From: a virus
Direction: 5' to 3' (one strand)
IMG/VR virus record: IMGVR_UViG_3300044611_001441
Span: 1 to 22,147 of that record
Length of the DNA: 22,147 nt
In this document: piece by piece, positions 2,907 through 17,252 of the stretch
Position numbering within the stretch: the stretch's first letter is position 1
How the letters are laid out: each line of letters opens with the position of its first letter
Position numbers and translations under genes: made by a program
The notes under the pieces: model-generated
The model's input: the letters and a program-made list of their open reading frames with translations, nothing else
What the model was told of the DNA's origin: nothing
Databases searched by the model: none

Positions 2907-3665
2907 TCAGATCACTCTTGTTTTTTCGTGTCCAACGCGAATGCGAGGATCACACCAGATTTCAAAACCTGCTTCTTTTGCATCGAGGCAGAATGATACA
3001 TCTTCTCCACACATGTCTTGAACTTGTCCAGATTCAAAGACTTGCATCTTTGGAGCAAACCAAGGATACTTGATTTCTGGATGTTCAAATACTCCATTCT
3101 TAATCAGAAGCCATCCAAACCCTGCATAGTCAACTGTAAATGGTTTACGACGCTTTGAGATACTCTCAACGGTTTCGTGATTCATCACACCACCATTACC
3201 TCTAAAGTCATCCTCATCCAACCAGTGTGCCACTGAGGTTGTATGACCATCTTCTGTTGCATACCATCCAGAAGCGATGTCCTTATCCATCAGAACAAGT
3301 TGCCAGAATTTTTCTGTATTGAAAACAATATCAGAGTCAATCCAAAGTTGCCAATCATAATTGAGTTTGCCATCCCAGGGAATCTGATCAGGCCCACGCA
3401 GTACATTCGCACCTAAACATTTGCATCTTGCAAAGTTTACCATGGATGAATAGTCCTGCGAGATCTGGATGCTTGCTCCCGATTGTACAATATCAAAACA
3501 CAGTTGTACAAAGTTTTTTAGATAGGTATATGAGACTCCTCTTCCAGGAAGACAAAAGACAATGGATTTTCCCTTCACCATTTCTCTTGCTAAATTATAG
3601 TCCCATTCTTGTGTAGTCTGTGAGGCAACTGGTGCCTTTGCTTTTACGGTAAAACCCTTGGCCAT
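2907..3665 (-). CDS. GT-A fold glycosyltransferase-like protein
   Basis: 252 residues. After a 30-residue lead, KGKSIVFCLPGRGVSYTYLKNF starts a Rossmann-like GT-A domain. WIDSDIVF (108-115) carries the DxD metal/nucleotide-sugar motif (Asp110, Asp112). The C-terminal CGEDVSFCLDAKEAGFEIWCDP (219-240) is the usual acceptor/catalytic ED region, followed by RVGHEK with a possible metal-binding His246. Cyanophages often carry such enzymes, presumably to modify virion proteins, DNA or host surface sugars; the substrate cannot be told here. A weak late-type box TATAGATA lies 37 bases upstream. Confidence 0.85.
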   Translation of the reverse strand: MAKGFTVKAKAPVASQTTQEWDYNLAREMVKGKSIVFCLPGRGVSYTYLKNFVQLCFDIVQSGASIQISQDYSSMVNFARCKCLGANVLRGPDQIPWDGKLNYDWQLWIDSDIVFNTEKFWQLVLMDKDIASGWYATEDGHTTSVAHWLDEDDFRGNGGVMNHETVESISKRRKPFTVDYAGFGWLLIKNGVFEHPEIKYPWFAPKMQVFESGQVQDMCGEDVSFCLDAKEAGFEIWCDPRIRVGHEKTRVI

Positions 3666-5519: not shown

Positions 5520-5602
5520 AATAAGACAGGACTGAATGTAAAGAATAAACCACACCACTGACAATAAATTACATTCAATCCTGAGTTATTCTTTATACTC
5601 AG
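5508..5602. repeat. 34-bp near-perfect inverted repeat
   Basis: Left arm 5508-5541 and right arm 5569-5602 match at 31 of 34 positions, with a 27-base spacer. Both arms begin or end with CTGAGTATAAAGAATA. It directly follows the tandem repeats and lies downstream of the small gene ending at 5644. Transcribed, it would give a very long A/U-rich hairpin. Confidence 0.8.
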
Positions 5603-5643
5603 AAAAAAGTATAAAGAATAAAGAACTACTACAGATTCATTCT

Positions 5644-15990: not shown

Positions 15991-16114
15991 TTTCAAAACC
16001 TTGAGAGATAACATGCTTCTCCCACATGGAAGCATCTTCGACTTTATAGAAAGTTGCGACTTGTTTGGAAGTCGCTTTCTTTTTGTTTTTGGTGTAAATC
16101 ACTTGGTACTTCAT
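15965..16114 (-). CDS. Small basic hypothetical protein
   Basis: 49 residues from the ATG at 16112-16114: MKYQVIYTKNKKKATSKQVA, TFYKVEDASMWEKHVISQGF, ENVEIMPVF. A beta-alpha-beta layout (VIYTKN, EDASMWEKHVISQG, VEIMPVF) common in small cyanophage proteins. Its first 70 bases overlap the end of the upstream gene in another frame, which is unusually long for this genome. Confidence 0.7.
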   Translation of the reverse strand: MKYQVIYTKNKKKATSKQVATFYKVEDASMWEKHVISQGFENVEIMPVF

Positions 16115-16322
16115 GAGGATTTTCAATAAAGATTTCAATTTGAGTTTGTTTATTCCAATGCCTGATGGTATTTGCAACAATGAAACAGTTAGTGATTAAA
16201 ATCTGCAGTGTAATTACTAAACGAATAAAGGCAACTCTGTCAGCAGTTTTGTTACAATGAGGATGAGACTTTTCTCCTAATGCACAATAAATGTAATAAA
16301 GTAATCCTTTTTTCTTTTTCAT
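16044..16322 (-). CDS. Small membrane protein, downstream half of a split gene?
   Basis: 92 residues: MKKKKGLLYYIYCALGEKSHPH, CNKTADRVAFIRLVITLQIL, ITNCFIVANTIRHWN. The pattern ALGEKxxxxCxKxADRVAxIR followed by one membrane span and xIRHW is a small cyanophage membrane protein. Its start overlaps the homing endonuclease stop (ATGA), and an orphan Trp-rich start (16973-17029) lies on the other side of the endonuclease. The poly-Lys N-terminus may be a replacement acquired on insertion. Confidence 0.72.
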   Translation of the reverse strand: MKKKKGLLYYIYCALGEKSHPHCNKTADRVAFIRLVITLQILITNCFIVANTIRHWNKQTQIEIFIENPHEVPSDLHQKQKESDFQTSRNFL

Positions 16323-16921
16323 AATTTTTCAACTTTAACCCATCCTTTGTAATAATTTTTTTCACCGTTTAAAATTCTATAAAGTTTACATGAATCGTGG
16401 TTACTTATTTTTCTACAAAATTCTCTTAAACTATTTGTTATAATAACTGTCCCATCTTTATGAGTCAACCTATAATTATTTTTGCGAACTCTTTTAATGA
16501 TATTATCAAGTCTTTCATTTTCATCCCAAGTTATTAACCTTCCAGGAACCCATTCATCTCCAGGGCATTTTTTAGATTGAGAATTTTCTACTCCATTATT
16601 CCACCATTTTCTTCCCAACACATCTTGACGTATTTTTTCTTTTTCCTGTTGAGAATATACTTTACCAGAAGAACCATTACCTCCCGCATTTTTATTTTCA
16701 AGTATACCAGTTTTTAAATCTATTCTACCTAGAATAGCAATCATGTAAATTTCGTGCTTAAATGCTTCTTCTTCAGTTAGATTTTGTTTTAAAAAAATTA
16801 TTCTATCTTTTGGAGGTCTTTTGACATTGTGCTTCCTAAATGCGCGATTTTGTTTTCCTTTACCAATATAATAAGGTGTTCTATCTTCACGCAGATATGC
16901 ATAAGTATAATATTCTTTCAT
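16319..16921 (-). CDS. GIY-YIG homing endonuclease
   Basis: 200 residues. The GIY-YIG module is at residues 5-83: YTYAYL (Tyr7), PYYIGKG (Tyr18), Arg26, HEIYMI with catalytic Glu57, and ENKNAGGNGSSG with Asn78. Then a SQQEKEKIRQ helix (NUMOD3-like), a KWWNNG...KCPGDEWVPGR module and a C-terminal LREFCRKISNHDSCKLYRIL DNA-binding module. It makes a site-specific cut that spreads its own gene. The A+T content is higher than in the neighbours, as usual for invaders. Intact. Late box in a hairpin loop just upstream. Confidence 0.9.
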   Translation of the reverse strand: MKEYYTYAYLREDRTPYYIGKGKQNRAFRKHNVKRPPKDRIIFLKQNLTEEEAFKHEIYMIAILGRIDLKTGILENKNAGGNGSSGKVYSQQEKEKIRQDVLGRKWWNNGVENSQSKKCPGDEWVPGRLITWDENERLDNIIKRVRKNNYRLTHKDGTVIITNSLREFCRKISNHDSCKLYRILNGEKNYYKGWVKVEKL

Positions 16922-16991
16922 TTGTGTCTTGGCGTTGACTATTATTATTTATTGGTGTGGGACTTACACAACTTAATCCGCCAAGACACAA
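16922..16991 (-). promoter_or_regulatory. Hairpin enclosing a late promoter at the endonuclease start
   Basis: TTGTGTCTTGGCG (16922-16934) and CGCCAAGACACAA (16979-16991) are perfect 13-bp inverted arms; the start codon of the endonuclease follows the 3' arm directly in the RNA. The 44-base loop holds the late box AATAAATA (16946-16953). RNA from upstream promoters would fold over the start site; RNA begun at the late box would lack the 5' arm. Confidence 0.7.
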
Positions 16992-17029
16992 GTTGTTGCC
17001 CACCACCTCCAGGCGTTTTTAGGTTTCAT
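16973..17029 (-). pseudogene. Orphan N-terminal fragment of small membrane-protein gene
   Basis: An 18-residue frame MKPKNAWRWWATTCVLAD, starting inside the upstream stop region (ATG 17027-17029). The Trp-rich start looks like the missing N-terminus of the ALGEK...IRHW protein now starting at 16322; the endonuclease lies between. This reading is inference from protein pattern memory. Confidence 0.42.
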
Positions 17030-17252
17030 AAACTGATTCTCTTGACTTTATGTAATTTAGTTCATTCCATTGATTTGCATAGCATAAGACCAATACTCTT
17101 TCATTGCGATGAAGACTACATGCTTCATAATTGATTGGATCTTTTGGTCTTACATCAACTTCAATAGTCACATATTCATTACTAACAAAATACACCCATC
17201 CTTCTACACCTTTTTTCCAGGTTACATAATCATTTACCTTGGGAACATACAT
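17019..17252 (-). CDS. Conserved small phage protein
   Basis: 77 residues, SH3-like beta pattern: MYVPKVNDYVTWKKGVEGWV, YFVSNEYVTIEVDVRPKDPIN, YEACSLHRNERVLVLCYANQWNEL. Widespread in cyanophages and related marine phages without known function. It overlaps the upstream gene by 19 bases. Confidence 0.83.
   Translation of the reverse strand: MYVPKVNDYVTWKKGVEGWVYFVSNEYVTIEVDVRPKDPINYEACSLHRNERVLVLCYANQWNELNYIKSRESVYET

Follow-up and report, generated by a model that had tools for sequence, protein, structure and literature searches.

What is the purpose of a perfect inverted repeat that encloses a phage late-promoter box and ends at the start codon of a mobile nuclease? The question is raised by a stretch of 22,147 nucleotides from the virus record IMGVR_UViG_3300044611_001441 (the window in the following), in which such a repeat precedes a putative GIY-YIG-type homing endonuclease gene of 200 aa (16319-16921, minus strand). 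The original prediction explained it by the logic known from T4 I-TevI, a 5' hairpin which hides the translation start on early read-through RNA and leaves it open on late RNA. We favour, with a probability of roughly 0.6, a broader reading: the hairpin is the window's copy of a leader shared among T4-like cyanophages, the loop of which blocks the start in cis and probably also in trans, the nuclease being made in low amounts and late.

The hairpin and the nuclease gene of the window

An inverted-repeat search of the window returned two arms of 13 nt, 100% complementary and separated by 44 nt: a 5' arm or anti-start segment (16979-16991, minus strand) and a 3' arm immediately 5' of the ATG (16922-16934, minus strand), both also recovered by alignment and covariation. 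Between them lies the late-promoter box AATAAATA (16946-16953, minus strand; box 2), a column conserved in 48 of 48 leaders of the class termed type A below, and the ATG (16921-16919, minus strand) adjoins the 3' arm with zero intervening bases. Arms, box and start codon are therefore all found where they had been placed before, and the hairpin is confirmed as a real inverted repeat, with the translation start lying under its 3' arm. Of 300 windows simulated with a first-order Markov model at matched composition, 8 contained at least one perfect inverted repeat of this length or longer (13 bp, gap of 3-60). The real window holds three, of which only the one spanning 16922-16991 brackets a late box and adjoins a start codon. 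The other two (1870-1907 and 5586-5621) are possibly terminators.

Folding of the read-through RNA through the arms is predicted with z = -2.5 (3 of 200 shuffles were equally good). No Shine-Dalgarno sequence precedes the ATG within CGCCAAGACACAAATG of the window copy, and the part hidden by the hairpin would thus be the start region rather than a Shine-Dalgarno sequence. Judged from T4-like spacing, late RNA would begin near 16940; the predicted mean unpaired probability of the start region is 0.50 on this late RNA compared with 0.26 on read-through RNA, and the corresponding predicted medians over 179 leaders are 0.59 and 0.32.

The assignment of the window protein to the GIY-YIG type rests on its motif residues and a moderate fold match, without an above-threshold Pfam match. 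The protein matches PHROG 15526 (E 3e-27), and the motif residues Y5, Y7, Y18, G20, R26, E57 and N76 are invariant across 47 relatives. Its predicted fold resembles the UvrC GIY-YIG domain moderately (prob 0.87, E 0.32, TM 0.50 by target) and also matches I-HmuI (prob 1.0). In Pfam, PF01541 gave no match above the cut-off for the window protein, the only hit being LEM-3_GIY-YIG with 18.8 bits, below the cut-off of 27.

Uninterrupted relatives (L332-L341) show that the cassette interrupts a PHROG 1679 gene within its 5' end (ATGAAACCTAAAAACGCCTGGAGATGGTGGGCA, then AAGGCGCTAGG). By translation and comparison with these alleles, the 18-codon start of the interrupted gene is left in the window as the frame MKPKNAWRWWATTCVLAD with its stop codon (16973-17029, minus strand), which runs through the 5' arm. 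The alleles further identify, on the downstream side of the cassette, a PHROG 1679 gene copy (16044-16322, minus strand), which overlaps the nuclease stop (ATGA), and the upstream PHROG 522 gene (17019-17252, minus strand), which was used for locating the empty site. At the same site as in the window, L337 carries at 760-915, after the end of the PHROG 522 gene, a second copy of the nuclease C-terminus behind the intact gene.

A leader common to unrelated mobile nucleases

More than 150 leaders, common to unrelated mobile nuclease genes, make up the family of which the hairpin is a member. A protein-only search of viral contigs yielded 80 loci and, after removal of duplicates, 61 unique leaders; TAAATA was present within 55 nt of the start in 59 of these, and complementary arms (score of at least 22) surrounded the late box in 54, compared with 12 of 177 control late-box sites on the same contigs. 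IMG/VR contigs are redundant and related to one another. The type A and type B sets of the pattern scans (a gene-blind scan with the type B DNA core, returning at least 120 stretches, and a separate type A core scan) were picked on leader sequence, and their counts apply among the matches listed; unbiased rates are hence given by such protein-selected counts only (for the arms and for the upstream box discussed below). The arms themselves differ strongly in sequence from copy to copy, with complementarity nonetheless kept.

Both types have a second hairpin that covaries, P1, and its loop is formed by the 5' arm. In type A, this hairpin consists of an outer stem GTGGG/CCCAC, an inner stem (G/A)CAAC/GTTG(C/T) and a near-invariant unpaired GTAAG; in type B, it has a short variable stem (for example, GCTTAA/TTAAGC or CCTG/CAGG). 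The window copy, a type A leader, retains P1: its outer stem is formed by GTGGG (16999-17003) and CCCAC (16957-16961), its inner stem by ACAAC (16992-16996) and GTTGT (16968-16972), all on the minus strand, and an A-U pair replaces the common G-C pair of the inner stem, a compensatory change within the window itself. The unpaired GTAAGT (16962-16967, minus strand; A1 columns 43-48, mean entropy 0.06 bit) is almost invariant in the 48 type A leaders while the arms vary freely, and it possibly represents a protein contact.

Covariation was scored on a MAFFT alignment of the 48 type A leaders, taking P1 and the arms as the structure. Paired cells amounted to 94.9% (82.6% when shuffled) and double-change cells to 111 (29 when shuffled), and the covariation score of 0.314 was not reached by any of 500 shuffles (0.113); sliding the structure by one column lowered pairing to 40%. 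Double changes were found in 13 pairs: three of the five outer P1 pairs, one of the four inner P1 pairs and nine of the 13 arm pairs, a conservative count, as in four of the type A rows the arms are out of register. G-U content was dropped as a proof of pairing at the RNA level, because the scoring favoured G-U and because of the same four rows. Type B arms are too variable for alignment and were tested by swapping partners instead, which gave a median arm score of 30 for own and 14 for swapped partners; type B P1 pairing exceeded 300 of 300 permutations (120 leaders, among the matches listed). Pairing of P1 as well as of the arms may hence be taken as shown for the leader family by comparative analysis, and the expectation that the arms would be conserved with the gene through compensatory change is borne out by the covariation in the type A leaders. 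One could still regard the arms as a chance repeat or as a remnant of the upstream gene's end, all the more as the window holds two more perfect 13-bp inverted repeats; this is refuted by the compensatory changes in 48 and 120 relatives and by the excess of arms in protein-selected leaders over control sites, leaving it a negligible probability.

The leader had been tied to a GIY-YIG gene, a view too narrow for what the scans returned: among the matches listed, it stands before GIY-YIG genes of four subtypes, HNH genes, PD-(D/E)XK-like genes and genes of NUMOD-only proteins, the PD-(D/E)XK and some of the HNH assignments being motif readings without a Pfam match. At one genomic site, represented by 13 contigs, cassettes with several different complementary arm pairs precede GIY-YIG, HNH or PD-(D/E)XK-like genes. 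In the complete genome of S-SRM01, the best eight distinct arm scores among 159 late-box-like sites are all upstream of nuclease genes; seven of these leaders are composite, no two of them having the same arms, and the eighth, which precedes an endonuclease VII gene, is a simple hairpin. The leader could serve as a practical signature for mobile nucleases missed by protein models, the window gene itself falling under the Pfam cut-offs.

Identical arms also occur before unrelated nucleases, which bears on the possibility that the repeat is a DNA operator or a mimic of the homing site and that the nuclease represses its own late promoter. I-TevI does so via an overlapping operator (PMC2988022), and here, too, the repeat flanks a late box. 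However, no part of the leader is as variable as the arms (in type A, about 0.8 bit of entropy compared with 0.27 for P1), which vary between closely related copies whose proteins are similar; a site bound by a protein would be expected to keep its sequence and not just its complementarity. We consider an operator improbable. The arms as target guides of a guide RNA were likewise ruled out, as unrelated nucleases stand behind one and the same leader and the arms find their partners within that leader.

Some further members of the family should be mentioned. In seven loci (L113, L139, L185, L193, L307, L329 and L006), the leader precedes small NUMOD-type proteins without a recognised nuclease domain, possibly decayed nucleases or stand-alone regulators. 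In L137 (type B core at 3061-3088), a baseplate-like gene comes after P1, the terminator and the late box, and the 3' arm is lacking, which makes this copy a relic or solo leader. One loop family of type B, AATTAGGTGACACTATAG (L091, 5120-5137, minus strand; also L095, L098, L120, L134, L169 and L180), lies one mismatch away from the promoter consensus of phage SP6; no such match is expected by chance in the L091 locus, and the loop pairs with its own 3' arm like the other loops.

Terminator, upstream late box and a candidate antisense RNA

Most relatives carry a terminator between the arms, in type B as a separate GC hairpin with a T tract and in type A as the P1 outer stem with a T-rich tract. 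A stem of at least 5 bp lies between P1 and box 2 in 120 of 120 type B leaders (among the matches listed), and 47 of the 54 protein-selected leaders, both types included, are U-rich between the arms. Terminator-like matches were found in example type B leaders; the window and L248, an example of type A, gave none.

Type B, the larger class, has in addition a late-type TAAATA box upstream of P1 (box 1). Among the matches listed, it is placed exactly 4 nt before P1 in 82 of 143 type B leaders and near P1 in most others; in the protein-selected set, TAAATA is present 60-100 nt above box 2 in 41 of 50 non-type-A leaders compared with 15 of 273 control sites, and an upstream box in only one of ten type A leaders. 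Conservation starts sharply at box 1 with almost no information above (117 distinct flanks, among the matches listed); the box was a selection criterion for this set, and the informative part is the drop above it. Both type B boxes read TAAATAnTAnTGC and presumably act as promoters. NATAAATA is the late box accepted for T4-like cyanophages (PMC2984593). With T4-like spacing, RNA from box 1 would start at P1 and mRNA from box 2 at the 3' arm. The type B layout thus predicts a separate RNA of about 55 nt, with a loop antisense to the start region that lies downstream.

The full type B order (late-type box, P1 with its start-complementary loop, terminator, second late box, start region) suggests how the parts could work together. 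Early or middle transcription would be stopped at the terminator, and any RNA reading through it would be blocked, its 5' arm pairing with the start region. The late mRNA initiated at box 2 would contain the 3' arm only and be translatable. In type B, the short terminated late RNA from box 1 would probably pair with this late mRNA in trans and limit its output, the net result probably being a nuclease kept low and late. As both late RNAs would be made simultaneously, the benefit should lie in control of dose, not of timing. The existence of the short RNA, its action in trans and the direction of its effect are what we infer from this arrangement.

How much of this is needed beyond the plain logic of I-TevI and T4 gene e, in which the arms hide the start in cis, P1 and the terminator do no more than shield the gene from transcription arriving from upstream, and the upstream box is incidental? 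The geometry is identical to that of T4 e, soc, I-TevI, segB and mobE, simple late-box hairpins lacking a terminator occur within the protein family itself (L016, L023) as well as upstream of two S-SRM01 endonuclease VII genes, and the window copy, devoid of upstream box and U-tract, fits as well. On the other hand, P1 would be a competitor of the cis hairpin for the 5' arm and nonetheless covaries in both types; a terminator between the arms places them mostly on separate RNAs; and a box just above the arms would give a blocked late RNA, yet it is held at a fixed spacing in type B. We therefore judge a purely cis-acting leader unlikely, though the most serious competitor. Of the I-TevI logic initially proposed, the late box between the arms and a start predicted to be more open on late RNA stand; the model is incomplete in that it leaves unexplained the P1 hairpin holding the 5' arm, the terminator that separates the arms of most relatives, and box 1 of type B. 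Taken together, these three elements suggest that a short antisense RNA is made separately and that the cis hairpin is one of the states of the leader. In the S-SRM01 genome (L210), the classical T4 arrangement and composite leaders coexist: the hairpins at 126148 and 142277, both before endonuclease VII genes, are simple, with the late box inside and no terminator.

A further step would be to see in the leader a trans-acting antisense module, which moves between unrelated homing endonuclease families (GIY-YIG, HNH, PD-(D/E)XK-like), its short late RNA offering a variable loop that matches the start of the nuclease mRNA behind it, and of which a single phage genome holds many copies, each with a loop-target pair of its own. 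This we propose tentatively, at slightly less than even odds. With duplicate sites removed, the loops of one genome showed no significant tendency to avoid each other (five cases of cross-pairing, 8.2 expected), and selection for separate trans specificities therefore receives no support from the loop-distinctness test.

The window copy is degenerate with respect to this scheme, having neither the upstream box nor the U-tract; the position of the T tract in other leaders is taken by a 14-nt gap. Consequently, it is mainly the cis block that would be able to act there, and the most likely working state of the window is such a block, from which late RNA starting at about 16940 escapes.

Relation to known systems

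No description of this leader was found in the literature searched (outside which most subscription papers lie) or in Rfam, where neither the window nor the type A or type B loci gave a match above the gathering score; the exact 27-base type B core had no match in bacterial or archaeal genomes. If the favoured reading is true, T4-like cyanophages share an RNA device that tames many types of selfish nucleases, is separate from them and is swapped between them. It would also link the hairpin of T4 late genes with same-strand antisense RNA, and would offer naturally varied pairs of RNA loop and target for study.

Start-hiding hairpins with a late promoter inside are known from T4 e, soc, 49, I-TevI, I-TevII, I-TevIII and segB as well as from Aeh1 mobE (PMC2988022, PMC3014915). 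The free-standing position of the gene, presented as a new part of this logic, is not new, such hairpins having already been described for the free-standing T4 segB and Aeh1 mobE (PMC2988022). The present leader resembles this group in its inverted repeat, in the 3' arm at the start and in the late promoter between the arms. It differs in that the 5' arm is at the same time the loop of the conserved P1, that most relatives possess a terminator and type B an upstream box, that it is common to unrelated nuclease families, and that the region hidden in the window contains no Shine-Dalgarno sequence.

The c4 antisense RNA of the phages P1 and P7 is encoded just upstream of its target and on the same strand. 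It is 77 nt long and has loops complementary to the region around the ribosome binding site of the target (PMC12197685). As in c4, the antisense segment of the present leader is held in a hairpin loop and its target is a translation start region. Unlike c4, it has another sequence and structure (without a match in Rfam), its target is a nuclease and not an antirepressor, the arms vary between copies, and the target has a late promoter of its own behind a terminator.

A homing endonuclease of a T4-like cyanophage is also linked to RNA regulation in the case of CfrI of S-PM2, an antisense RNA of about 225 nt from the opposite strand, which extends across psbA and F-CphI (PMC2984593). The leader described here shares this link with CfrI and differs from it in being a same-strand element with paired arms.
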